Shown in pieces: positions 2,395 through 64,000 of a stretch of 64,000 nucleotides of DNA. Origin of the DNA: Bacteroidota bacterium (GTDB lineage: Bacteria; Bacteroidota; Bacteroidia; Bacteroidales; JACABE01). A program made the translations under genes and the position numbers. The notes under the pieces are model-generated. The model saw nothing but the letters and a program-made list of their open reading frames with translations, did no database searches and was not told the DNA's origin. The stretch covers positions 87,307-151,306 of the forward strand of contig JACABE010000001.1 in the NCBI GenBank assembly GCA_013377005.1. The letters run 5' to 3'. Within the stretch, counting starts at the first letter, position 1. Each line of letters opens with the position of its first letter.

Positions 2395-3090
2395 TTACCC
2401 CCTCAAACTTATATTGGTTAGGCTTTCTATATTATTTAAAAGAATAATATTACCATCAACAGAAATTATATTCTCATCTTTGAGTTCTTTAATAATACGG
2501 ATGGCACTTTCTTTTGACATTGCTGTTAAATCGGCTAAATCTTGTCTTTTAATAATTATTTCACCGTTTTTTTCATTAAAAACTTCATTATGTAAATAGA
2601 GTAAAGCACCAGCTATACGACCATGCATACCTTTTTGAGTTAACTCAATAAATTTTTCATAATTTGACAAGGTATGCATATTAACCCATTTTAGAAGATT
2701 TATAGCAAAATCTTTATTAAGCATTACAAGATCCGTTAAGGTTTTTACGTCTATAAAACAGGCTGAGGATTCCTCAACTGCCATTGTTGTAACATGATTC
2801 TTAAAATCAGTAAACACACCAGGTCCACCAATAATAGTTAACGGACGGGCAAATCGAAGAATTAGATTGCGATTATCAATACCTTCCAGATATATTTTGA
2901 CAAGACCTTCGTTAAGAACAATAACATGAGTCAAGGCTGTCCCCTGTTTAAAAATAACTTCACCAGGACGAAATTTCACCCTGCAACGGACTTGATTGAT
3001 CAGTTCAAATTGTTCGTCTGTAAGCGAATTAAACATAGGTAAATTGGTTAAACAAGATCCGCAATGTTTAGTAATTTTTTTTTCATCCAT
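2395..3090 (-). CDS. Crp/Fnr-family transcriptional regulator
   Basis: A 231-aa protein with an N-terminal cyclic-nucleotide-binding-like beta-roll (about residues 20-130), a dimerisation helix, and a C-terminal winged HTH (about 165-215). The recognition helix SKESAIRIIKEL keeps the Glu (E194) and Arg (R198) that FNR-type proteins use to read the TTGA half-site; the intervening FNR Ser is replaced by Ile. Four cysteines are present: C10 and C13 as a CxxC at the N terminus, C36 and C111. This is the number FNR uses for its 4Fe-4S cluster, but the spacing is not the E. coli pattern. Divergent from the multihaem cytochrome cluster, with two FNR-like boxes in the shared upstream region, so it probably controls that cluster and perhaps itself. 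The signal sensed (oxygen, NO, or other) cannot be read from sequence. Confidence 0.9.
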   Translation of the reverse strand: MDEKKITKHCGSCLTNLPMFNSLTDEQFELINQVRCRVKFRPGEVIFKQGTALTHVIVLNEGLVKIYLEGIDNRNLILRFARPLTIIGGPGVFTDFKNHVTTMAVEESSACFIDVKTLTDLVMLNKDFAINLLKWVNMHTLSNYEKFIELTQKGMHGRIAGALLYLHNEVFNEKNGEIIIKRQDLADLTAMSKESAIRIIKELKDENIISVDGNIILLNNIESLTNISLRG

Positions 3091-3244
3091 TTTACTTCAC
3101 TTTTTAATTATAATGCAATTGACTTTTCGCTTTGGATTCATTAAAAAATAGTATAATCTTGTTCAAAAACAATAGATATTCGATAAAGTTTTGAATGCAA
3201 CAAAATATTTATTTTTAATAAAAAATACTACTCAAATCAGTTAA

Positions 3245-3258
3245 TTGACTTTTATCAA
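3245..3258. promoter_or_regulatory. FNR-like box TTGAC-TTTT-ATCAA
   Basis: Matches the TTGAT-N4-ATCAA consensus at 9 of 10 defined positions. It lies between the Crp/Fnr gene and the cytochrome cluster. The half-sites are identical to those of the site at 62320-62333 upstream of another multihaem cytochrome gene. Confidence 0.6.
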
Positions 3259-3392
3259 TTTAAAATTATTATTAGTCAATGCAAAGATATGTAAAAATCA
3301 TTCAAAACCAAATAAATCTCTTTATTTTTTCAAAAATGGATTGATTATTTTATTGATTGAAGTTCTATCATAGTTATTTTTCGTTATACCGA

Positions 3393-3406
3393 CTGATATA
3401 TATCAA
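3393..3406. promoter_or_regulatory. FNR-like box CTGAT-ATAT-ATCAA
   Basis: Matches TTGAT-N4-ATCAA at 9 of 10 defined positions. It is about 140 bp upstream of the candidate -7 element at 3532, further than the classical class II position, so another promoter or upstream activation would be needed. Confidence 0.55.
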
Positions 3407-3531
3407 TTTTTCCTTGATTCTTACTATTCTGTGATGTGTTATAAATCAGATTATAAGAGGTTTAATTTTTTTTATTATATACAAAAAGCCTTAGTAAAAG
3501 TAAGTTAAAATTAATATGTCAATTATTTCAT

Positions 3532-3539
3532 TATTTTTG
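3532..3539 (+). promoter_or_regulatory. Bacteroidota -7 element TATTTTTG
   Basis: Matches TAnnTTTG, 28 bp ahead of the ATG of the cytochrome lipoprotein gene. No clear -33 TTTG box at the expected spacing. Confidence 0.45.
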
Positions 3540-3567
3540 TATTCATTAATTTTAAAATGAAAATGAA

Positions 3568-3939
3568 ATGAAAATGAAAATTCTAATTTTAGGTGTATTT
3601 ATTATTGCAATATTAGGAAGCTGCAAAAAAGACACTATTCAACCTACTGTTATTCCTGTAAATACAACAGTAAAATTTTCAACAGATGTGTATCCGCTTA
3701 TTGCCACTCATAATTGTACAATGTGTCATGGTTCTGGTTCTTCGACAGGATTAGACTTATCAGGAAATTATTCTGCTGTGAGAACGAATTTATTAGTAAA
3801 TGCTGTCGTTGCAGGTAATTCTGCTACAAGTTTATTCTATACTAATTTTTCTGGTGCAGGCCATAAAGGTATATCTTTAACCACTGTTGAGCTTTCAAAT
3901 GTAAAAAGCTGGATTGATTTAGGTGCATTAGATAATTAA
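3568..3939 (+). CDS. Monohaem c-type cytochrome lipoprotein
   Basis: A 123-aa protein with an SPII signal peptide (lipobox LGSC, acylated Cys19) and one haem c site, CTMCH at residues 50-54. The sequence around it (YPLIATHNCTMCHG) resembles small Bacteroidota cytochrome c lipoproteins annotated with planctomycete-type cytochrome C domains. No Met follows the haem site at a position typical of a distal ligand; a His (GAGHKG) is available. An in-frame ATG two codons later is an equally good start. First gene of the cytochrome cluster, 32 bp before the beta-barrel gene. Likely membrane-anchored electron carrier; inner-face or surface location is not known. Confidence 0.85.
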   Translation: MKMKILILGVFIIAILGSCKKDTIQPTVIPVNTTVKFSTDVYPLIATHNCTMCHGSGSSTGLDLSGNYSAVRTNLLVNAVVAGNSATSLFYTNFSGAGHKGISLTTVELSNVKSWIDLGALDN

Positions 3940-3971
3940 TATTAAAATCATTAATCATAAAAAATAATATT

Positions 3972-4898
3972 ATGACAACAATAAAAAAAACATTAAAGAG
4001 CTTTTATTTACTTCGCATTTTATCAATAGTGCTTTTTGCAGTTCTTGCTATTAATTTTACTTATGCTCAAGAATCAACACCTGAGAAAAACACAGCAGTA
4101 ACCGGTGTTTTTAATAGTGGCACTTTTATTGAAAACCAAACAACTGTTGTTTTACCAAAACACACATTTGAATTTGTAGTTAATCATAGATTTGGCAAAA
4201 TAGGGGATGGGTTTAAAGAGCTTTTTGGTATATACTCTCCTTCAAATATTAGATTTGCATTAAATTATGGTATTACTGATAAATTTCAGATTGGTTTGGG
4301 TACAACAAAATATAACAAAATACAAGATTTGAATTATAAATATAGTATATTTGAACAAACTACCAATAACAAAATTCCAGTGTCAATAGTATACTTTGGT
4401 TCTATATCTTATGATGCAAGAGAAGAAGCCACTAGTTTTAGTTATGAAAACTATTCATTTTCTCATAGATTCTCTTATTTTAATGAAATTATGGCTTCAA
4501 GGAAGTTTTGTGATTTCTTTAGTATGCAGGTTGCCGCAACACATACTCATCTAAATATTGTTGAATCAGCCAGTGAAGTAAAAGCAGACCCTCTTTACAG
4601 AAATGATCAATTTGGTATGTCAGTATTAGGTAAATTAAATATTACGCCAACACTTGCATTTACATTTGAATACGATAAAAATTTCAGTTTGATTACAAAA
4701 AAGGTAACTGATAAATTTAAAGAAGTAAAACCAAATTTTTCTTTAGGAATTGAGAATTCAACAGCCGCTCATTCTTTTCAAGTATTTATTACAACAGCCG
4801 AAGCTATTGATTATTCAAGAAATATGGCTTATAACCAAAATACATTTACTTCTAAGGGTTTAATGATAGGATTTAATATTACTAGGGTATTTTATTAA
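3972..4898 (+). CDS. DUF5777-like outer-membrane beta-barrel protein
   Basis: A 308-aa protein with a signal peptide ending near residue 32 (NFTYAQ) and alternating amphipathic strands through to a C-terminal aromatic (RVFY), as in outer-membrane beta-barrels. The segment TTVVLPKHTFEFVVNHRFG followed by IRFALNYGITDKFQIGLG matches my recollection of the DUF5777 family, often found beside cytochrome c genes in Bacteroidota. It sits between two monohaem cytochrome genes with gaps of 32 and 48 bp, so it is probably co-transcribed. A role as the barrel of a porin-cytochrome conduit is inference from context only; no haem motif is present in it. Confidence 0.75.
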   Translation: MTTIKKTLKSFYLLRILSIVLFAVLAINFTYAQESTPEKNTAVTGVFNSGTFIENQTTVVLPKHTFEFVVNHRFGKIGDGFKELFGIYSPSNIRFALNYGITDKFQIGLGTTKYNKIQDLNYKYSIFEQTTNNKIPVSIVYFGSISYDAREEATSFSYENYSFSHRFSYFNEIMASRKFCDFFSMQVAATHTHLNIVESASEVKADPLYRNDQFGMSVLGKLNITPTLAFTFEYDKNFSLITKKVTDKFKEVKPNFSLGIENSTAAHSFQVFITTAEAIDYSRNMAYNQNTFTSKGLMIGFNITRVFY

Positions 4899-4946
4899 AA
4901 AATACATATATTCAGAAAATAAATAAAAACAATTAAAAAAACTAAA

Positions 4947-5330
4947 ATGAAAAAATCAAATGTAAGAAAAATTGTAGCATCTATCTCAATGTTTGCTATC
5001 GCATTATGTTTATTTTCATTTGTTGGTATCAACAAATGGGATGTTCCAGCATCAGATGCAGGTATTAAAAACCCAGTAAAAGCTGATGCAGCTTCTATTG
5101 CAGCGGGAAAAGCTGAATATACAAAAACTTGCAAAATGTGTCATGGCGAAAAAGGTGACAGCAAAGCTGGAGCACCATCTAATTTTACTTCAAAAGAATT
5201 TAAAGCACAATCTGATGGCGCAATTTATTACAAAATCAATACAGGTTTTGGTAAAATGCCTAAATATAAAGCTAAAATCAAAGCTGATAACGACAGATGG
5301 AATTTAGTTAATTACCTACGTACATTGTAA
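4947..5330 (+). CDS. Class I monohaem cytochrome c, exported
   Basis: A 127-aa protein with an N-terminal hydrophobic export signal (residues ~9-28), a CKMCH haem site at 62-66, and a distal Met candidate, M104 in GKMPKYK. The C-terminal helix DNDRWNLVNYLRTL is typical of class I cytochrome c (cytochrome_CBB3/C family). Likely a soluble or membrane-tethered periplasmic electron shuttle. It is followed by two consecutive hairpins that should end the first transcription unit of the cluster. Confidence 0.9.
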   Translation: MKKSNVRKIVASISMFAIALCLFSFVGINKWDVPASDAGIKNPVKADAASIAAGKAEYTKTCKMCHGEKGDSKAGAPSNFTSKEFKAQSDGAIYYKINTGFGKMPKYKAKIKADNDRWNLVNYLRTL

Positions 5331-5346
5331 TTAGCAAATTAAAATT

Positions 5347-5417
5347 TTTATTTGGGGGTAACCCAAATAAAGAAACATTAAAATTACTACGGTCTTCTAA
5401 TAGATCGTAGTAATTTT
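5347..5417 (+). terminator. Tandem hairpins, terminator after cytochrome c gene
   Basis: First hairpin: arms 5347-5356 and 5362-5371. Second hairpin: arms 5380-5391 and 5406-5417, followed by T-rich DNA. The second is a good intrinsic terminator, so the large cytochrome gene at 5486 may have its own promoter or rely on read-through. Confidence 0.7.
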
Positions 5418-5485
5418 TTAAATATAAGATATAGGACTTCCGCTTAAAAGCTAAAAATATACTAATTAATTTAATTAAAAAGAAA

Positions 5486-8272
5486 ATGTTGAATTTTGTT
5501 AAGTCAACTTCATTAATAATAATAACTGCATTACTCTTTTTTACAAGCAGTTTGTATTCTCAAAATACGAATGAAGATTGTTTGGCTTGCCATAGTGATA
5601 AAACTTTAATAAAGTCAAGAAAAGGGAAGTCAATTTCATTATATGTTGATAATGGGATTATTGGAAATTCAATTCATAAAAAAGTTAAATGCGTATCCTG
5701 CCATAAAGATGCCGATGTTAGCGAGTTCCCTCATCCAGAAAATCTCAAAGAAGTTGATTGTGGTGGATGTCATAAAAATGCACAAAATCAATTTGCGCTT
5801 AGTATTCATGGGCAGGCATTAAAATTTAACGCTCCTTATGCTCCGGATTGTAAAGAATGCCATGGAAAACATAATGTTTTACCACATACAGCCGTAAAAT
5901 CTACTACTTATAAGCTTAACATTCCCATTTTATGTGGTAAATGTCATAGAGAGGGAGCTCCTGTTGCTCGTTTATATAACATAACAATGAAGGATATTCT
6001 TACTAATTATAGCGAGAGTATTCATGGTAAGGGTTTATTCGAAAGTGGTCTGATTGTTTCTGCAACGTGTAACGATTGTCATAGTAATCATTCAATTTTA
6101 CCTCATACTAACCCTCAATCAACTACGTCAAGTGCTAAAATTGCAAGTACTTGTATGAAATGTCATGCAAATATTGAGCATGTTCATAAGAAGGTAATTA
6201 AAAAAGAATTATGGGAAAAAAAATCAGGTAGCATTCCCGCTTGTAATGATTGTCATTCCTCACATAAAATTAAGATACAAAAAACTGAAACTTCTATTTC
6301 AAATCAGATTTGTTTAAGATGCCATGAAACAGATAAGGCTTTTAAAATAATAAATAACAAAAAAGTTTCTTTAAAAATTCACAAAGAAGATTTTATAAAT
6401 ACAGCTCATAAAAATTTAGCATGTAATAAATGCCATACTGACGTAACAACTGGTAATAATTCTGTTCGACCATGTATAACCGTTAAGAAAGTGGATTGCT
6501 CTATTTGTCATGAAGAGGTTTCGAATGTATATATAAATAGTGGTCATGGTCAAGCTTATTTTAATAAAAAATCTAACGCACCTTATTGTACAGATTGTCA
6601 TGGCAAACATATAATTAAGAGCAGATATGATGAAACATCTGTAACCAGCAGGGCAAATATTCCTCAGCTTTGCGGTAATTGTCACACAAAAAATGGGAAG
6701 GCTGTTATAAATACAAAATTAAAAGAAATTGATGCATTTAGTGATTATTCAAAAAGTGTTCATGGCAAAGGATTGATGGAAAAAGGATTACTTGCCAGTG
6801 CTATTTGTACAGACTGTCATACTTCTCATAATGTTTTAAAAGAATCTGATATTAATTCAACAGTTAATCCACAAAATGTTCCAGCTACTTGTGGAAAATG
6901 TCATAAAAGCATTTACAACGAATATCTCGAAAGTGATCATTCAATATTGAGCAATACGAAAGAGAAAAAATATCCTACATGCGCCAGCTGTCATACAGCT
7001 CATACTATTACCGAAATTGATAAAGATAAATTTTTAACTCAGATTACGCTTCAATGTGGTTCTTGCCATAAAAAACTTTCCGAAACATATATGGAGACCT
7101 ACCATGGGAAAGCATATACATTGGGACATTTAAAAGCAGCTAGATGTTCTGACTGTCATGGTGCTCATAAAATTTTAAATCTAAACAACCCTGAATCAAG
7201 CGTTGGAGAAAAAAATATTGTGAAAACCTGTAAAAAATGTCATGAAAATGCCAATCTTAAATTTACAGGGTACTTATCTCATGCAACTCACAATGATAAT
7301 AAAGTTCTTTATTTTACATTTTGGGGAATGACATCTCTTCTTTTAGGTGTATTTGGATTTTTCGGTCTTCATACTCTTTTGTGGATTCCGCGTTCAATAG
7401 TGGAAGCACGGAAAAAGAAAAAACACCTTAAACCACTGGGCGAGTTAAAATATGTTAGACGCTTTACAAAAAGCCAAAGGATTACGCATATATTTGTTAT
7501 TCTTAGCTTTTTATCGTTAGCATTAACAGGTATGATGCTGAAATTTGCTCATATGGGATGGGCTAATAGTTTAGCAAAATTAATTGGAGGTGTTCACATA
7601 GCAGGAAATATTCATCGCTTTGCAGCTATAATAACTTTTGGATATTTTACCTTTCATGTTTTTTCTTTATTGAAATTAAAAAGAACACAAAATAAAGGTT
7701 TTGCATCTTTCATTTTTGGATCTAATACACTTATGTTTAACAAGCAGGATGTGAAAGATTTTATTGCTACAGTTAAATGGTTTTTGTGGTTGGGTGAACG
7801 CCCTAAATATGGAAGATGGACTTATTGGGAAAAATTTGATTACATGGCTGTATTTTGGGGGGTAGCCGTTATTGGTTTCTCTGGCTTAATTTTATGGTTC
7901 CCTGAATTTTTCACAAAGCTATTACCGGGATGGGCTATAAATGTTGCTCAGATTATACATAGCGATGAAGCTTTATTGGCAGTAATCTTTATTTTTACAA
8001 TCCATTTTTTCAATACACATCTTCGCCCGGAGGCATTTCCTATGGATACTGTAATTTTTACAGGACATGTAGAGGCAGAAGAATATAAAACCGATAGACC
8101 TAAAGAATGGGAAGAAATGGAAAAATCTGGAAATCTCGAAAAACTGATTGTTAAAAAGGAAATAACAGCATCTTGGTTGAAAATAATAAAATTCTTTGGT
8201 TTTATCTTCCTGTTTACAGGTTTTATCTTAGTAATTCTTATTATTTATTCCTTAATTGGTGGTAAATACTAA
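5486..8272 (+). CDS. 19-haem cytochrome c fused to membrane cytochrome b (CbcL-like quinol oxidoreductase)
   Basis: A 928-aa protein: signal peptide (to about residue 25), an exported region with 19 CxxCH motifs (first CLACH at 32-36, last CKKCH near 581-585), then a membrane domain from about 605. The membrane part has about five or six hydrophobic helices and conserved His in ITHIF, GNIHRF, TFHVF, IIHSDE and IHFFNTH, as expected for two b haems of the cytochrome b561/NarI-like type. The architecture matches Geobacter CbcL-type menaquinol oxidoreductases, though with more c haems. The region from SIHGQA (5803) recurs from SGHGQA (6538) as an internal duplication of about 245 aa. Likely oxidises menaquinol and delivers electrons along a haem wire in the periplasm. 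Followed by a homologous gene. Confidence 0.9.
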   Translation: MLNFVKSTSLIIITALLFFTSSLYSQNTNEDCLACHSDKTLIKSRKGKSISLYVDNGIIGNSIHKKVKCVSCHKDADVSEFPHPENLKEVDCGGCHKNAQNQFALSIHGQALKFNAPYAPDCKECHGKHNVLPHTAVKSTTYKLNIPILCGKCHREGAPVARLYNITMKDILTNYSESIHGKGLFESGLIVSATCNDCHSNHSILPHTNPQSTTSSAKIASTCMKCHANIEHVHKKVIKKELWEKKSGSIPACNDCHSSHKIKIQKTETSISNQICLRCHETDKAFKIINNKKVSLKIHKEDFINTAHKNLACNKCHTDVTTGNNSVRPCITVKKVDCSICHEEVSNVYINSGHGQAYFNKKSNAPYCTDCHGKHIIKSRYDETSVTSRANIPQLCGNCHTKNGKAVINTKLKEIDAFSDYSKSVHGKGLMEKGLLASAICTDCHTSHNVLKESDINSTVNPQNVPATCGKCHKSIYNEYLESDHSILSNTKEKKYPTCASCHTAHTITEIDKDKFLTQITLQCGSCHKKLSETYMETYHGKAYTLGHLKAARCSDCHGAHKILNLNNPESSVGEKNIVKTCKKCHENANLKFTGYLSHATHNDNKVLYFTFWGMTSLLLGVFGFFGLHTLLWIPRSIVEARKKKKHLKPLGELKYVRRFTKSQRITHIFVILSFLSLALTGMMLKFAHMGWANSLAKLIGGVHIAGNIHRFAAIITFGYFTFHVFSLLKLKRTQNKGFASFIFGSNTLMFNKQDVKDFIATVKWFLWLGERPKYGRWTYWEKFDYMAVFWGVAVIGFSGLILWFPEFFTKLLPGWAINVAQIIHSDEALLAVIFIFTIHFFNTHLRPEAFPMDTVIFTGHVEAEEYKTDRPKEWEEMEKSGNLEKLIVKKEITASWLKIIKFFGFIFLFTGFILVILIIYSLIGGKY

Positions 8273-8309
8273 TAAATTGAATTTATTTTAATGTTGTATA
8301 TTTAAAAAA

Positions 8310-8338
8310 GAAGCCATCGCCATAAAAAGCATGGCTTC
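8310..8338 (+). terminator. Weak hairpin between the two cytochrome b/c fusion genes
   Basis: Arms 8310-8317 and 8331-8338 (8-bp stem, 13-base loop) followed by a short T-rich stretch. It could be a weak terminator or attenuator. The in-frame ATG at 8331 is inside its right arm, which argues against that ATG as start of the next gene. Confidence 0.45.
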
Positions 8339-8381
8339 GTTTATTTCACTAAATTTAAATCATATAAAAATATTAATCTTT

Positions 8382-10769
8382 ATGAGAAAAGTAGGTTTTG
8401 GTTTTCTTTTTTTTATTGCCATGAATTTTTCTATGGGACTTTTTTTAAGTGCTCAAGAAATCAAATGTATTGATTGTCACGAAAATTTAATTTTAAATAC
8501 AGTTCATGATAAAATTATTAAATGTGGCGATTGTCATGATGATATTAGATCTGAAGAACATTCTAAAGCAAATATCAAAAAAGTAGATTGTAAAAAATGT
8601 CATGCAGCATTAAACACACAAATGAATAATGATGTACATCGCAAATTAAAGCATTTATCTGAAGCAAAATCGCCCAATTGTAAATCTTGCCATGGAACAC
8701 ATAATATAATTTCACCAACTACTATAAAAGACAAAGAAAAAACATATTGTGGTAAATGTCATAAAACTAATATTATGGCAACAGCTTATCATACGGTTAG
8801 TAATACAAACGAAAGTTGTGCTAAATGCCATAATAAAAAAGATCATAAGCTAGAATTGTCGAAATCTATTCATAAGAATTTATCCTGTGCTAATTGTCAT
8901 AGTTATGTGGTTAATAATATGGCAAATCACAAAAAAGCACCCAAAGATGGTGTTTTAGCCGATTGTTATTTATGCCACAGTGCAATTGCCAAGGAGCATA
9001 AAGAAAGTATCCATGGTTTATCGTTAACCGAAGGGATTAACGAAGCTGCTCAATGTTGGAATTGTCATGGTTCACACGATATTAGTCCTATAAATACAAT
9101 AGAAAGTAAAGTATATCCAATTAATCTACCTGCAACTTGTGGTAAGTGTCATGATGATACTACTTTTATCAAAAAGTATTCTTTATCAGCAAACAAGCCA
9201 GGTAAAACCTATTCAGAAAGTGTGCATGGTAAATTGGTGATGTCTGGAAAGAAAAATTCAGCAACATGTGTAACTTGTCATGGAAAGCACGATATTAAAA
9301 ATCGGGTTCAATATGCTTCTATGATATCCAGTGTTAATTTGCCTAACACGTGTGAAAAATGTCATAAAGAAATTACCGAAGATTATAAAAAATCAATTCA
9401 CTGGATAGCAGTTAAAAAGGGAATTCGAAGTGCTCCTTCTTGTAATGATTGTCATAGTGAACACAATATTCAAGCAATTAATACAATAAATAAAAGGGAT
9501 AAGATGAAAAAGATTCAGGATAATACCTGTCTTCAATGCCATCAAAACTTATTACTCTCTCAACGTTATGGAATGGAGAACATGAATGTAAAAAGCTATC
9601 AAGATAGTTATCATGGACTTGCTTCATCTCATGGTAATAAAAATGCAGCTATGTGTGTGGATTGCCATTCAGTACATAAAATTTTACCAAAAGACCATCC
9701 GGAATCTTCAACAAATAAAAACAATATTTTAAAAACTTGCAAAAAATGTCACACTGAAGCAACTGAAACTTTTGCAAACAGTTATTCTCATACTACTCAA
9801 GTAGGCTCTGCAGCTAATATTGAATCTATTGTCAGAAAAGTTTATTTCTGGTTAATTGTTGTTGTAATTGGCTGGATGTTTTTCCACAATCTTTTAATAT
9901 TAATTCACGAAATACGAAATAGATATAATAAATCAAAGAATGAAATACGAATTCCAAGATTTACAAAGAATGAACTTATTCAGCATACTATGCTATTAAG
10001 TTCTTTTATCTTATTAGCAATTACTGGATTTTTGTTAAAATTCCCTGATAGTATTCTTGGTGATTTATTTTACTCTTTAGGTTTAACAGAAATTATCCGT
10101 CAATGGATACATAGAATTTCTGCATTAGTAATGATAGTCTTATCTGTTTATCATGTTATTTATTTAATTTTTACTTCCAGAGGTCGTGATGTTTTATTTG
10201 GCTTATTCCCAAATTTTAGTGATCTTATTCAGATGAAAGATACGATGTTGTATTATTTACACTTGAGTAAAAAACATCCTGAATATGATAATTACAATTA
10301 TATTGAAAAGATGGAATATTGGGCATTAATTTGGGGTACTGTAATTATGGGATTAACAGGATTTGTTCTTTGGTTTCCAACTATAGTTGGAAATTGGGCC
10401 CCTGTTTGGTTTATTAAAGTAAGTGAAATTGTTCATTTCTACGAAGCAATATTAGCAACATTGGCAATTGTTGTCTGGCATTGGTTCTTTGTAATGTTCC
10501 GTCCAAATGAATATCCGGTAAGTTTTACGGTTTTTGATGGTAAAATGACAGTAAGTCATTATAAAGAAGAACATCGTTTGAAGTATTATAAAGTTATTCA
10601 AGAGTTTATGGAAATGGAAAAAGGAAATCTCAGTGCAAAGAAAGCAAGTCATTTCACGAAACTATTTATAGATACAATTGAAAAACAAGGAATAACCATG
10701 CAAGAGTTTGTGAATAATGAATTGATAAACGATGCAAAACTAAGAGAATTTATAAATAGTAATAACTAA
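8382..10769 (+). CDS. 16-haem cytochrome c fused to membrane cytochrome b (CbcL-like paralogue)
   Basis: Start set at ATG 8382 because it gives a proper signal peptide (MRKVGFGFLFF...LSAQE); the in-frame ATG at 8331 adds 17 residues inside a hairpin. The 795-aa product has 16 CxxCH motifs (CIDCH at 29-33 through CKKCH near 452), then a membrane cytochrome b domain from about residue 485 with conserved His in QHTMLL, WIHRIS, VYHVIY, EIVHFYEA and VWHWFF. It ends in a soluble tail of about 80 residues. Same order of domains and the same SxHG...CxDCHxxH modules as the preceding protein, but with a different haem number and without the complete 245-aa duplication. Probably a second menaquinol-linked multihaem oxidoreductase, tuned to another potential or partner. 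Confidence 0.9.
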   Translation: MRKVGFGFLFFIAMNFSMGLFLSAQEIKCIDCHENLILNTVHDKIIKCGDCHDDIRSEEHSKANIKKVDCKKCHAALNTQMNNDVHRKLKHLSEAKSPNCKSCHGTHNIISPTTIKDKEKTYCGKCHKTNIMATAYHTVSNTNESCAKCHNKKDHKLELSKSIHKNLSCANCHSYVVNNMANHKKAPKDGVLADCYLCHSAIAKEHKESIHGLSLTEGINEAAQCWNCHGSHDISPINTIESKVYPINLPATCGKCHDDTTFIKKYSLSANKPGKTYSESVHGKLVMSGKKNSATCVTCHGKHDIKNRVQYASMISSVNLPNTCEKCHKEITEDYKKSIHWIAVKKGIRSAPSCNDCHSEHNIQAINTINKRDKMKKIQDNTCLQCHQNLLLSQRYGMENMNVKSYQDSYHGLASSHGNKNAAMCVDCHSVHKILPKDHPESSTNKNNILKTCKKCHTEATETFANSYSHTTQVGSAANIESIVRKVYFWLIVVVIGWMFFHNLLILIHEIRNRYNKSKNEIRIPRFTKNELIQHTMLLSSFILLAITGFLLKFPDSILGDLFYSLGLTEIIRQWIHRISALVMIVLSVYHVIYLIFTSRGRDVLFGLFPNFSDLIQMKDTMLYYLHLSKKHPEYDNYNYIEKMEYWALIWGTVIMGLTGFVLWFPTIVGNWAPVWFIKVSEIVHFYEAILATLAIVVWHWFFVMFRPNEYPVSFTVFDGKMTVSHYKEEHRLKYYKVIQEFMEMEKGNLSAKKASHFTKLFIDTIEKQGITMQEFVNNELINDAKLREFINSNN

Positions 10770-11026: not shown

Positions 11027-11812
11027 TCATAATAAACTCTTTGCAATTAACTCAATTATGTCGTAATTAGAAATTTTCTCTTCCTCATTTTTGTATTTGA
11101 TACCGTCGCTTAACATTACCATACAATATGGGCAAGCGGTAGCAATAATGTCTGCTTTAATTTCTAAGACTTCTTCTATACGTTCAATAAAAATTTCTTT
11201 GTTGCCTTTTTCTGCTTCTTTAAACATTTGAGCACCACCAGCACCACAGCATAAAGCATAACTTCTGCAACGATTCATTTCGGTTCTGTTTCCTGTAAGT
11301 TTGTCGATTAAGTTTCGTGGTGTGTCGTAGATATTATTCGCTCTGCCCAAATAACAAGCATCGTGGTAAGTAATTATATTTTTATTAAAGATATCAGGAT
11401 TGATTTTTAATTTACCTTGCTCTACCAAGTTTTCTAAAAAAATTGTGCTATGAATCACTTCAAATTCTGCATCCAAATCAGGATATTCATTTTTGAATGT
11501 ATTAAAACAATGTGGGCAAAAAGTGACAATCTTCTTTACCTCATACATCTTTAGCATTTCTATTATAGTAAGTGCCTGCATCTGATACAGCATTTCGTTT
11601 CCGGCTCTTCTAACAGGGTCGCCACAACAGGTTTCTTCTTTACCCAGTATTGCATAATCAACTTCACAGGCAGAAAGAATCTGGCAAAATGCACGACTAA
11701 TCTTTTTGGCTCTGTCATCGATAGAACCCAAACAACCTACCCAAAATAAATATTCAGGTTTTTTCCCTTTTGCAAAACATTCCGAAAGTATCGGAACTTC
11801 TATATATTCCAT
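11027..11812 (-). CDS. HdrB-like CCG-domain Fe-S oxidoreductase subunit
   Basis: A 261-aa soluble protein made of two cysteine-rich CCG domains (PF02754 type): CCG at residues 62-64 and 188-190, with supporting cysteines in WVGCLG, TFCPHCFN, YHDACYLG and TACPYCMV. This is the composition of heterodisulfide reductase subunit B and of the C-terminal half of fused ETF:menaquinone oxidoreductase-type proteins. It follows the membrane Fe-S gene by 28 bp on the same strand, so the two products should form one complex. Substrate cannot be read directly; electron transfer with ETF is favoured because an acyl-CoA/ETF operon lies in the same window. Confidence 0.88.
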   Translation of the reverse strand: MEYIEVPILSECFAKGKKPEYLFWVGCLGSIDDRAKKISRAFCQILSACEVDYAILGKEETCCGDPVRRAGNEMLYQMQALTIIEMLKMYEVKKIVTFCPHCFNTFKNEYPDLDAEFEVIHSTIFLENLVEQGKLKINPDIFNKNIITYHDACYLGRANNIYDTPRNLIDKLTGNRTEMNRCRSYALCCGAGGAQMFKEAEKGNKEIFIERIEEVLEIKADIIATACPYCMVMLSDGIKYKNEEEKISNYDIIELIAKSLL

Positions 11813-11840
11813 AACTAATGATTTACTGAATAATTATATC

Positions 11841-13139
11841 TTACTGACTAATTTCTTTGGTCCATAACAATCTGTCTTCGGACGAAAACTGCCAAGGTGC
11901 TCCATTATTTTCTACATTGGAAAAGGCTGCCTTTATACCCGATGGTGCTTCGCCTTCTTCCATCACAAGATATCTTCGCATATCAACAATTAATGAAGGG
12001 TGATTGATATTTACCGGGCACTCCTGTGCACAAGCATTACAGGTGGTACAAGCCCATATTTCTTCATAAGAAAAGTATTCTTTGTTTAGCGATTTATTAT
12101 CAGCATAACTTTTGCCATTTTTTATCAATTCAGGACCTTTTTCTCTCATTCTGGCTCTTAAATCCATCATCAATTTTCTGGGCGAAAGCTTTTTGCCTGT
12201 TATGTTTGCCGGACAAACAGAAGTGCATCTACCGCATTGGGTGCAGGTAAGAGCGTCAAAATAGTTTTTCCAGCTAACATCTTCGGCATCTTTTACTCCA
12301 AATCTTTCGGGTACTGCATTGGGATCTCCTGCTGCATAAGCAGTTTCGGGGTTCATCATAATCTTTACTTCTTTAGTAACATTATCCATATTATATAGTT
12401 TTCCAAGAGGTTCTAATCGGCTCAAGAATACATTAGGCACAGATAAAAACACATGAAAATGCTTAGAATAGGGTAGTATATTAGCAAAAATAAATATCAA
12501 TAAAATATGTATCCACCAAAAAAACTGGTATAAATTAGCATCTTCTTCTCCGTTGCCTATTATCGTTGTCAAAAAATTACTAATGGGATAAAATCCTTTT
12601 ATTTCGGCAATGTTATTGTTAGAAGAAATATAGAATGTATTCATTCCCAATAATGAAAGCATTAATAGTAAAATCATGGTTAGTGCAATGTAGGCATCAA
12701 GATGCGTTTTGTGGGTCATTTCGATACCGTTAAATCGCTTGATTTTTAAGAAAACTCTTCTGCCAATAAAAAGAGTAATCATTACTAAAACAATAGCGGC
12801 AAATACATCTCCTGAAAACAGAATAATTTTGTAGATAATACCCAAAAAAGAAAGACTTTTTTCGCTACCACTTACACCATCTATTACCATTTCAATGCTT
12901 CCGACTGAAATTACACAAAACCCCCAGAAAACTAATGCATGCATTAAACCTAAAACAGGTTTGCGAAATATTTTGCTTTGCCCTAAAGCCACTTTAAGCA
13001 TTATTAAGAAGCGCTTTCCAAAATTTCTTATAGGAAAAGTTTTGGTAAGCTTGAATAAAGCTATAAGGTTGAAAATAGTGTAAGAAAAGATCCCAAGCGT
13101 GAGCAAAAGCGTGATAATAAAAATGATTTGCTTTATCAT
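11841..13139 (-). CDS. Membrane cytochrome b-like / 2[4Fe-4S] oxidoreductase subunit (HdrC/EMO-like)
   Basis: A 432-aa protein: five or so membrane helices in the first ~230 residues with His in GLMHAL and WWIHIL (NarI-like haem b candidates), then a dicluster ferredoxin domain. The two 4Fe-4S sites are CTQCGRCTSVCP (299-310) and CTTCNACAQECP (364-375). With the downstream CCG-domain gene it matches, split in two, the layout of membrane Fe-S oxidoreductases that link ETF to menaquinone in anaerobes. The alternative is a generic HdrC-type subunit using another donor. A -7 element is present at 13178-13185 on the minus strand. Confidence 0.88.
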   Translation of the reverse strand: MIKQIIFIITLLLTLGIFSYTIFNLIALFKLTKTFPIRNFGKRFLIMLKVALGQSKIFRKPVLGLMHALVFWGFCVISVGSIEMVIDGVSGSEKSLSFLGIIYKIILFSGDVFAAIVLVMITLFIGRRVFLKIKRFNGIEMTHKTHLDAYIALTMILLLMLSLLGMNTFYISSNNNIAEIKGFYPISNFLTTIIGNGEEDANLYQFFWWIHILLIFIFANILPYSKHFHVFLSVPNVFLSRLEPLGKLYNMDNVTKEVKIMMNPETAYAAGDPNAVPERFGVKDAEDVSWKNYFDALTCTQCGRCTSVCPANITGKKLSPRKLMMDLRARMREKGPELIKNGKSYADNKSLNKEYFSYEEIWACTTCNACAQECPVNINHPSLIVDMRRYLVMEEGEAPSGIKAAFSNVENNGAPWQFSSEDRLLWTKEISQ

Positions 13140-49548: not shown

Positions 49549-50319
49549 TTACCAATTGGGTTTACGTTTTTCAAGAAATGCATTCATGCCTTCACCCGAC
49601 TCACCATTCCCAAAACTATTACCAAAAACCTCTGCTTCAAGTTTACATGCCTCATTAAAAGGCATATTATATCCCTCTCTGGTAACTTGTTTCACATTTT
49701 GAACAGATAGTTTCCCCTTTTCGGAGATTTTCTTAGCAATTTCCATAACTACGTTCATTAATTCTTCTGCTTCAACCACTTTCTGAACCAATCCTATTCT
49801 TAATGCTTCCTCCGCAGAAATAACTTCTGCAGTTGTGAGCAAATACAATGCATTCCCCATGCCTGTTAATCTTGAAAGTCTTTGAGTGCCAGCATATCCG
49901 GGAATTAATCCAAGATTTACTTCTGGTTGTCCGAATTTTGCTTTATTACTTGCAATTCTGAAATCACAAGACATAGCTAATTCGCAACCACCCCCCAATG
50001 CAAATCCATTTACAGCAGCTATTACAGGAATATGTAATGATTCAAGCCGATTAAAAACATTCTGACCCTTGATTGAAAAAACTGAACCTTGTTCCTGATT
50101 CATGTTTGCCATTTCAGCAATATCAGCACCAGCTACAAAAGATTTTCCTTCGCCAGTTATTACAAGAATCCTTACTTCAGGTTGCTTTGTCAAAACAGTT
50201 AGAAACTCATCAATTTCGTCAAACACTTTAGAATTTAAGGCATTGAGAGCTTCCGGTCTGGAAATTGTAAGAACAGCAATCTTTTCAGATATATTAACTT
50301 TAATTGTTTTGTAGCTCAT
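49549..50319 (-). CDS. Enoyl-CoA hydratase (crotonase family)
   Basis: A 256-aa crotonase-fold protein with oxyanion-hole segments FVAGADIAEM and NGFALGGGCELAMSCDF. The two catalytic glutamates of true hydratases are present, E113 and E133 (FGQPEVNLGLIPG). Hydrates 2-enoyl-CoA. First gene of the nine-gene acyl-CoA operon. A perfect FNR-like palindrome lies 86 bp upstream of its start. Confidence 0.95.
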   Translation of the reverse strand: MSYKTIKVNISEKIAVLTISRPEALNALNSKVFDEIDEFLTVLTKQPEVRILVITGEGKSFVAGADIAEMANMNQEQGSVFSIKGQNVFNRLESLHIPVIAAVNGFALGGGCELAMSCDFRIASNKAKFGQPEVNLGLIPGYAGTQRLSRLTGMGNALYLLTTAEVISAEEALRIGLVQKVVEAEELMNVVMEIAKKISEKGKLSVQNVKQVTREGYNMPFNEACKLEAEVFGNSFGNGESGEGMNAFLEKRKPNW

Positions 50320-50404: not shown

Positions 50405-50418
50405 TTGATATAAATCAA
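50405..50418. promoter_or_regulatory. Perfect FNR-like box TTGAT-ATAA-ATCAA
   Basis: All ten defined positions of TTGAT-N4-ATCAA match. It is centred about 92 bp before the enoyl-CoA hydratase start, a plausible promoter-proximal location. The presumed regulator is the Crp/Fnr protein at 2395-3090 or a relative elsewhere. Confidence 0.65.
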
Positions 50419-60825: not shown

Positions 60826-62169
60826 CTATTTTTTGGAAACAGGATGAGCGTTTAACCAATCAATAGAAGATTGTAGAAGTTTTAAAGCATATTTATAATT
60901 GTGAACGCCTATCGATAACTCACTGTTAATGTAACCATAGTTATATGCAGCACCTAATTCTCCGTAGGTCCATGGACGACCAATCCTTAATGCCCAATCA
61001 GCATCTTTTGCATATTTAAGTATGTTGCCATAAACTACTAAGCCTGTGGAAGTACTAACTGTATTCATGCTTGAACTTGCTGCATAGGTTTTGGTAGAGT
61101 CACTTGGTAAAGGAGTAATGTAAAGTTTACCATTGAAATCGTGAGTATTTAATGCACTATAAGATACAACGCCTGTACCACTAGTGGTTTTCTTAAATAC
61201 TTTTCTTGCTGTAAGTAAATTACCCAATTCAACAAGTTTTGCTGATATTGAAGTCTGAACAGGAGTTAATTTATCGCCACCATGGCAAGCAGTACATTGA
61301 GCTTTGTTAACAATCAAAGTATGACCACCGGTTTTGTCAGTAGCATTATAAGTGTTCATGTGACATGTTGTACATGAAAAACCAGTATGAGCCCATGTTC
61401 TTACATAAGTTACACCAGCATATTCATAACCATTGATACCTGCAAATAAGTTTGATTGGTTTCCATCATGTACAGCAAAACTTCTGCCTGCACGATATTG
61501 AACTGTATCTAAATCATTGTTAGTACTGAGTGTAAATGGGAAATATGGAAGTTGGTCAAATGCAGCATTAAGAACTTTAGGTGTTAATGTAGTATCAGAA
61601 TAAACCAAAGCAGTTTTGCCACGAATTTGGTGACAGTTTACACATAAGTTACTCATTTTCCCAAAATCTGTTGCAGTAAGATTTTTGTTATAATTTAAAT
61701 ATACTGGTTTATTTGTAAACAATACCTGAGATAATGTGTCACCAGATTCAAAATCAAAACCTGTATGTTTATGACAAGTTTGGCAATTAATTCTTGTAGC
61801 ATTCGGCATGTCATTTGTTACAGTAAATTGTCCGCTACCTTGAATTTCTTGAAATCCTTCGCTTGTGTGGCATCTGGCACAAAACTTAGTATTACGGCTA
61901 CTTGAAGTACCCAAGTAATGTTTTGATAAATGGTATTCGGCTATTTTTGTATCGAAATTAGCTACAGTATGACAAACACGACAAGATGAATTAGCATCTT
62001 TACCATTTAAACCATCAACACCGTTTACTCCGTTCAAACCATTTACTCCGTCTTTGCCATTTGCACCGGCAGGACCTACTGCTCCTTCTTTAGTACAGGA
62101 AACAAAAACTAAACATACTGCTGCAATCATCAATGTAGCAGTAAAAAAGATTTTTTGTAATTTTTTCAT
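60826..62169 (-). CDS. Hexahaem cytochrome c lipoprotein with collagen-like stalk
   Basis: A 447-aa protein. SPII signal with lipobox FVSC (Cys25), then ten uninterrupted Gly-X-Y triplets at residues 29-58 (GAV GPA GAN GKD GVN GLN and so on), then a domain with six CxxCH motifs: CRVCH (63-67), CARCH, CQTCH, CVNCH, CTTCH and CTACH. The haem-free C-terminal part ends in helices with IGVHNYKYALKLL. Collagen-like stretches after a lipobox suggest a trimeric rigid stalk holding the cytochrome away from the membrane, probably at the cell surface. An FNR-like box lies 151 bp upstream. A role in electron transfer to or from outside the cell is inference. Confidence 0.88.
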   Translation of the reverse strand: MKKLQKIFFTATLMIAAVCLVFVSCTKEGAVGPAGANGKDGVNGLNGVNGVDGLNGKDANSSCRVCHTVANFDTKIAEYHLSKHYLGTSSSRNTKFCARCHTSEGFQEIQGSGQFTVTNDMPNATRINCQTCHKHTGFDFESGDTLSQVLFTNKPVYLNYNKNLTATDFGKMSNLCVNCHQIRGKTALVYSDTTLTPKVLNAAFDQLPYFPFTLSTNNDLDTVQYRAGRSFAVHDGNQSNLFAGINGYEYAGVTYVRTWAHTGFSCTTCHMNTYNATDKTGGHTLIVNKAQCTACHGGDKLTPVQTSISAKLVELGNLLTARKVFKKTTSGTGVVSYSALNTHDFNGKLYITPLPSDSTKTYAASSSMNTVSTSTGLVVYGNILKYAKDADWALRIGRPWTYGELGAAYNYGYINSELSIGVHNYKYALKLLQSSIDWLNAHPVSKK

Positions 62170-62528
62170 ACATTCATTTTTTTGTTAAAAATATTTTTTA
62201 TTATCACAAGTTTTACAACTTCAATAAATCAAAACAAATGTAGAAAATATATGAATATGATTGTCTGTGCTTAAAGCTGATTTAAATTGACAATACAGTG
62301 TAAATTAATCATATTGGCATTGACAAATATCAACGCAAATACTTTAAAAGCATTAATATCAGCAATTTAAAAATTAATTAAAAACATCTTTAAATTTATC
62401 ACAATTATTTCTTATAAGGAAAACACGAAGCGAAGCCTTACAAACCCCCTTTGTGTTCGTGAAAAAATCATAAAAAATCATAAAAATATTTAATCAATTT
62501 AGGAGGTAATTTGTGCGTAAGCTTTTTA
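62170..62528. promoter_or_regulatory. Regulatory gap upstream of the collagen-stalk cytochrome gene
   Basis: A 359-bp AT-rich gap between two minus-strand genes. It contains the FNR-like box at 62320-62333 and a short direct repeat of AAAATCATAA units near 62463-62490. No gene and no clear terminator for the upstream gene were seen. Confidence 0.5.
62320..62333. promoter_or_regulatory. FNR-like box TTGAC-AAAT-ATCAA
   Basis: Matches TTGAT-N4-ATCAA at 9 of 10 defined positions, with the same half-sites as the box at 3245-3258. It is 151 bp upstream of the hexahaem lipoprotein start. Confidence 0.58.
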
Positions 62529-63679: not shown

Positions 63680-64000
63680 TTAAGGTAATATAGCTAATGT
63701 ATTTGTAAGTAATGCATTTGTATATTTATAATTATGAACACCCAAACTATATTCTCTCAAGCATAATTGGAAATTGATAATAGCTCCCATTTGTGCATTG
63801 GTTAAAGAAATTGCAGGTAATGAGTTATTAGTTGTAATTTGAGCAGCAGTGAAGCCAGTAGTTGATGGGTTTTTGAACATAGTTGTATTATATGTACTAC
63901 CAGTAGGATTATTGACTGGATCATAAATATTCAGGTAACCATCATAATGATTAGCTGTAAGACTGTACCATAAATTAGTTGTGGCATCACCATTTCTGTT
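63680..64000 (-). CDS. C-terminal end of a protein related to the hexahaem cytochrome lipoprotein (5'-partial)
   Basis: The minus frame is open from the window edge to the stop at 63680-63682, so the internal ATG at 63880 is not the start. The visible 106 residues end in YSLGVHNYKYTNALLTNTL, matching LSIGVHNYKYALKLLQSSI at the end of the hexahaem lipoprotein. The preceding INFQLCLREY replaces NYGYINSELS. No CxxCH is within the visible part, which is also true of the same region of the related protein. Probably a second multihaem cytochrome. Confidence 0.72.
   Translation of the reverse strand, partial: NRNGDATTNLWYSLTANHYDGYLNIYDPVNNPTGSTYNTTMFKNPSTTGFTAAQITTNNSLPAISLTNAQMGAIINFQLCLREYSLGVHNYKYTNALLTNTLAILP

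Follow-up and report, generated by a model that had tools for sequence, protein, structure and literature searches.

Background

In Escherichia coli, FNR occupies a single site in 89% of its peaks, and at most of the activated ones this site is located at -41.5 (PMC3688515). Repeated in-phase sites are known from tandem CRP promoters of class III or tandem class I (Tebbutt 2002, as cited in PMC4417206), and in Shewanella, CRP directly activates omcA and mtrC, which are genes for surface multihaem cytochromes (PMC4417206). Three tandem operators between a divergent regulator and its target have been described for NorR, and HcpR2 of Bacteroides and clostridia has the motif GTAAC-N4-GTTAC and the target hcp (both PMC1274295). 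In the open-access literature, we found no description of DUF5777 cytochrome clusters or of three-element FNR-type arrays.

The window, meaning the whole 64,000-nucleotide stretch of DNA that was analysed, is part of contig C1 of a draft genome (3.69 Mb, 92 contigs, about 97% complete). Genes were called with a simple open-frame caller, and some starts are off by tens of bases. A preliminary description of the window had singled out two FNR-like palindromes. Comparative sequence evidence indicates that these are real regulatory sites, the lead elements of arrays at cytochrome promoters, and that such arrays also stand at the promoters of the same gene cluster across Bacteroidales. The main feature, which that description had missed, is the phased array; the predicted functional unit is an array of three elements and not an isolated palindrome.

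Results

Locus structure

The palindromes lie inside a divergent intergenic region (3091-3567; 477 bp, 19.5% G+C) between the following genes:

2395..3090, minus strand: Crp/Fnr-family regulator, 231 aa (Pfam cNMP_binding and HTH_Crp_2)
3568..10769, plus strand: cytochrome operon (monohaem lipoprotein, DUF5777 beta-barrel, monohaem cytochrome c, 19-haem and 16-haem cytochromes)

The two large cytochromes of this operon carry 19 and 16 CxxCH motifs and b561-type membrane domains. TTGAC-TTTT-ATCAA (3245-3258) and CTGAT-ATAT-ATCAA (3393-3406) are located between the Crp/Fnr gene and the operon, as had been reported, and each agrees with TTGAT-N4-ATCAA at 9 of 10 positions, i.e. with one mismatch. 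Elsewhere at this end of the window, positions 3-2117 encode a surface protein of repetitive sequence that carries a sorting domain for type IX secretion (Por_Secre_tail). Adjoining the cytochromes on the minus strand (11027-13139) is a pair comprising a CCG-domain protein and a 4Fe-4S protein, which resembles subunits of the lactate-utilization or heterodisulphide-reductase type.

Taken alone, the two palindromes are only mildly unusual and barely beyond chance. Dinucleotide shuffles of the divergent region contain 0.18 sites on average and at least two sites in 1.4% of cases, and the window holds 15 sites with at most one mismatch where 9.5 are expected. The genome has 682 14-mers with at most one mismatch and 33 exact copies (reversed pattern, 9). 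Inspection of 32 of the 33 exact copies placed 28 inside genes and found none within a three-element phased array; the exact core of the fourth array described below, C1:152481, is one of the 33 and lies just outside the stretches inspected for gene position. With these counts, the exact 14-mer was rejected as a genome-wide predictor of the regulon. It had been proposed that the palindromes be judged against the genome background of the motif, and since 28 of the 32 inspected exact copies are intragenic, such a comparison would not favour the 14-mer. One exact intergenic copy, TTGATATAAATCAA at 50405-50418, is upstream of 49549-50319 (minus strand), and no phased partners of it were found. The 1.4% of shuffles, the mainly intragenic exact copies and the choice of the motif after the sequence had been seen would all suit a reading of the palindromes as chance matches in AT-rich intergenic DNA. 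This reading is rendered vanishingly improbable by the phasing, the order-wide conservation and the recurrence of arrays at two remote cytochrome promoters outside the discovery set.

Phased arrays

Each palindrome leads an array with elements at 0, +21 and +43 bp:

3245..3258, plus strand: array 1 element 1, TTGACTTTTATCAA, the first palindrome
3266..3279, plus strand: array 1 element 2 (+21 bp), TTATTATTAGTCAA, right half-site GTCAA
3288..3301, plus strand: array 1 element 3 (+43 bp), TATGTAAAAATCAT, right half-site ATCA
3393..3406, plus strand: array 2 element 1, CTGATATATATCAA, the second palindrome
3414..3427, plus strand: array 2 element 2 (+21 bp), left half-site TTGAT
3436..3449, plus strand: array 2 element 3 (+43 bp), right half-site ATCAG

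Not one of 3000 shuffles of the divergent region gave even a single such array. Because half-sites at +21 and +43 accompany both palindromes, the sites of the window stand far above chance. Array 1 element 1 aligns with TTGATTTATATCAA and TTGATTTTTGTCAA at the loci of a 79% and a 74% orthologue, respectively, and array 2 element 1 is one of nine genome-wide matches to TGATN4RTCA-N39/40-RTCA.

Comparison across Bacteroidales

Homologues of the regulator were collected first from 98 genomes of the order and then from 393, many of them assemblies from metagenomes, and their neighbourhoods were retrieved. Many homologues adjoin a cluster encoding a 5- or 6-haem lipoprotein, a monohaem protein, DUF5777, a monohaem cytochrome, a 7-haem cytochrome and a b561-type protein, to which some loci add an iron-sulphur protein and NrfD. 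A site with at most one mismatch occurs upstream of the regulator at 46 of 75 cytochrome-linked loci (3.7 expected from shuffles; 2 for the reversed pattern), and an exact site at 21 of the 75 (0.1 expected; 0 reversed). Near homologues away from cytochromes, the site was found in only 6 of 37 cases (Fisher p=6e-6 against the cytochrome-linked loci). When 61 divergent regions were searched for palindromes with any 5-bp arm and a spacer of 0-12, TTGAT-N4-ATCAA came out on top (19 loci). Shifted versions of it took the next places (17, 16 and 9 loci), and the palindromes after these occurred at five loci or fewer. An HcpR2-type motif was rejected on this ranking, and the HcpR2 target hcp does not fit this locus either. 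The consensus across loci is about ATTGAT-WTAW-ATCAAT, and since CTGAT and TTGAC are recurrent variants, both sites of the window are ordinary members of this set.

Reading from the best site toward the cytochromes revealed extra G and C peaks at fixed distances. Further elements that match the palindrome or one half of it occur repeatedly at -21, +21/22 and +43/44 bp. The half-site ATCA was seen at +43/+44 in 26 of 49 loci and at +44 alone in 19 of 49, which is 31-fold over background. A partner at a phased offset was found at 47 of 51 loci, whereas control offsets, displaced by at least two bases, gave 1-11; with one locus counted per family, the figures are 24.5 of 28 and 0.5-5.6. The anchor site was picked by a matrix built from the same loci, and the phasing is not circular because the control offsets share that anchor. 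The second and third elements frequently consist of one half-site only, and a dimer need therefore not be bound at each of them.

The array goes with the cytochromes, as is evident where the regulator and cytochrome genes run in the same direction. At 12 of 15 such loci, the site lies on the cytochrome side, between the regulator and the first cytochrome gene, usually with phased partners; a clear site is absent at the other 3. At one locus (L057), arrays precede both cytochrome units.

Two elements alone are unspecific across genomes, given that a scan of the 393 genomes with TTGATN4ATCAA-N38/39-ATCA returned mostly background. One genus (G122, G219, G300, G363) has additional TTGATATATATCAA sites with a +43/44 element away from the regulator locus, for example G300:C49:411-466 and G363:C187:10295-10350, which may mark further regulon members. 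Genome G208 contains dozens of dispersed tandem repeats of 22-bp period and TTGATAATTATCAACA type (e.g. C1:179423-179501); they probably form an unrelated family, because the reversed control pattern has still more matches in them.

Remote arrays and extent of the proposed regulon

Of the 13 remaining near-matches in the window, the array rule singled out one, at 62320-62333, which has two phased partners. It lies upstream of a gene whose product is a homologue of the cyt6 gene adjoining the regulator in other Bacteroidales:

62320..62333, minus strand: array 3 element 1, TTGATATTTGTCAA
62299..62312, minus strand: array 3 element 2 (+21 bp), left half-site TGAT
62277..62290, minus strand: array 3 element 3 (+43 bp), right half-site ATCAG
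60826..62169, minus strand: hexahaem lipoprotein downstream of array 3, with a collagen-like GPAG linker
C1:152439-152494 (L249), 1.1 kb past the window end: fourth array, upstream of the pentahaem gene C1:150986-152335

The pentahaem gene encodes a lipoprotein of 449 aa, and its 3' part is the window ORF 63680-64000. Two genome-wide searches with two-element patterns gave 12 matches, and the +21 element was also present in only four: arrays 1 and 2, the array at the hexahaem promoter (60826-62169) and the array at the pentahaem promoter. Four is a minimum: the patterns require an element at +43/44, and arrays of another form would escape them. The two remote cytochrome promoters are 58-62 kb from the regulator locus, and neither was used in finding the array rule. 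The order-wide conservation of the site, its tracking of the cytochrome promoter and its recurrence at two further cytochrome promoters thus support, at the level of sequence, the local control of the cytochromes that had been proposed. The support had been called strong circumstantial evidence when it consisted of the palindromes and the recognition helix; these alone are insufficient, and it is the comparative data and the phasing that uphold local control.

Promoter elements

At other loci, a TTG/TTTG peak occurs at +88 from the site toward the cytochromes. Candidate -7 elements in the window are:

62235..62242, minus strand: TACATTTG, with TTTG at +88 from the centre of array 3 element 1
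3532..3539, plus strand: TATTTTTG, candidate -7 element of the 3568-10769 operon
3282..3289, minus strand: TATCTTTG, -7 element toward the regulator, between array 1 elements 2 and 3

The element at 3532-3539 is the only TAnnTTTG toward the cytochromes at the divergent promoter of the window. It is +132 from the second site, and the conserved +88 spacing is not seen at this promoter. A common spacing for perfect TAnnTTTG toward the cytochromes was also considered and dropped, as the looser TTG/TTTG peak at +88 was the only one seen. The last array element on the cytochrome side lies about 45 bp before the TTG of the -7-like element and does not cover that element. Its implied position, estimated from this TTG, is about -50, compared with a centre of -41.5 for class II FNR sites. 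TATCTTTG fits the Bacteroidota -7 consensus (PMC7366714) and is conserved in this species group, at -38, -39 and -29 from the site in L057, L055 and L056, respectively.

These positions bear on the direction of control. A regulator that binds the arrays as a repressor would shut the cytochromes off until a signal releases it, and a row of dimers could indeed block transcription. At six loci (e.g. L138, L142, L143 and L068), a perfect TAnnTTTG toward the regulator starts at the palindrome edge (+7). This contact makes repression of the regulator's own gene plausible and suggests a direct block of its promoter. On the cytochrome side, however, the array ends some 40 bp upstream of the -7-like element and leaves it uncovered; moreover, few perfect TAnnTTTG elements point toward the cytochromes and more of them toward the regulator, a distribution that promoters depending on an activator would be expected to show. 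We therefore consider repression of the cytochromes unlikely. The regulator is probably an activator that probably represses itself.

The regulator

The domains of the regulator (cNMP_binding PF00027, 1.1e-15; HTH_Crp_2 PF13545, 3.2e-11) place it in the Crp/Fnr superfamily. Its conserved columns include C10, C13, D95 and C111, and its recognition helix is S192-KESAIR-198. C10, C13 and C111 align with FNR C20, C23 and C122, and in the alignment with FNR there is no equivalent of C29, so that the protein departs from the four-cysteine pattern of FNR. The triad is kept in 70-72 of 75 cytochrome-linked regulators, and D95 in 64 of 75. The cluster of Bacillus subtilis Fnr is held by three cysteines and an acidic residue. 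By analogy, three cysteines and an acidic residue could hold an iron-sulphur cluster in the regulator.

The preliminary description had also relied on E194 and R198 of the FNR recognition helix. Both residues are present, but they are not specific to FNR: aligned sequences of solved CRP structures agree that CRP has equivalents of both, and FNR Ser212 is replaced by Ile197, which together weaken the helix argument. FNR V208 corresponds to K193, and the FNR pattern E209..S212-R213 is not reproduced. K193 occurs in 70 of 75 cytochrome-linked proteins and in 17 of 37 others, and R198 in all 75 and in 26 of 37, respectively. As these residues are near-invariant only in the cytochrome-linked regulators, the recognition helix travels with the site.

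The arrays could be real and yet be bound by another Crp/Fnr paralogue acting as a global anaerobic regulator, with the adjacent gene serving other targets. The genome encodes at least five other Crp/Fnr proteins (one a partial frame), several of which share the cysteine triad, and TTGAT-N4-ATCAA specificity is common in the superfamily. Yet the site is absent upstream of the genome's own paralogues and of 31 of 37 non-cytochrome homologues, and the arrays are confined genome-wide to this cytochrome system, which is unlike a global regulon. The regulator gene is also linked to the cytochrome cluster in many families, and no site is present at a cyt7-DUF5777-cyt1-cyt6 cluster (L276) that lacks a neighbouring regulator gene; this is a single case, most other DUF5777 loci checked being of different cluster types or cut by contig ends. 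On balance, binding by a paralogue appears quite improbable.

Discussion

We propose, with good though not full confidence, that each of the two palindromes is the element farthest from the promoter in a phased array, and that both arrays are bound by the product of the adjacent regulator gene and activate a cytochrome regulon of three promoters. Since steps of 21-22 bp correspond to two helical turns, neighbouring dimers of the regulator would all sit on the same side of the helix and form a row upstream of the cytochrome promoters. The bound array would then activate the divergent DUF5777 operon, the hexahaem gene and the pentahaem gene; an activator fits better than a repressor here, since the last element appears to sit upstream of the core promoter. 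Occupancy of array 1 would probably also repress the regulator gene, as suggested by the location of its -7 element between array 1 elements 2 and 3. The signal would be sensed via an iron-sulphur cluster on C10, C13, C111 and perhaps D95. A broader generalization is offered tentatively, as we hold it to be somewhat short of an even chance: these regulators may form an order-wide Bacteroidales class of FNR-like proteins with a cluster on three cysteines (perhaps plus an aspartate) that function solely as cooperatively bound rows of dimers on helically phased operators of three elements and serve one electron-transfer cytochrome system.

On this proposal, an uncultured Bacteroidales cytochrome system gains a defined regulator, an operator and a regulon of three promoters, and the array can serve as a pattern with which to look for this regulon in other members of the order. 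A lone 14-mer match in AT-rich DNA is not trustworthy, whereas the spacing is. Three FNR-type elements placed every two helical turns constitute an operator architecture that contrasts with the single-site norm of Escherichia coli, and cooperative binding by Crp/Fnr proteins therefore becomes testable on short synthetic DNAs.

The TTGAT-N4-ATCAA half-sites of Escherichia coli FNR recur at the cytochrome promoters described here, and FNR resembles the regulator in its cNMP-type sensor with a Crp-type HTH and its cysteines C20, C23 and C122, and differs from it in having C29 and Ser212. Relative to FNR promoters, the sites described here form a three-element array that appears to lie about one helical turn further upstream and would serve a small, dedicated regulon. 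The CRP of Shewanella is the global cAMP-CRP acting at a single site or half-site, whereas an array and a putative local regulator are found here. HcpR2 is comparable as a Crp/Fnr gene beside its target in Bacteroidota. The nearest analogues are the tandem CRP promoters and the triple sites of NorR. Tandem CRP promoters likewise have in-phase Crp-family sites upstream of one promoter; the present arrays are distinguished by FNR-type sites, three elements of which the second and third are often half-sites, fixed steps of 21-22 bp and an order-wide distribution. NorR differs in being an unrelated sigma54 activator with GT-N7-AC sites.
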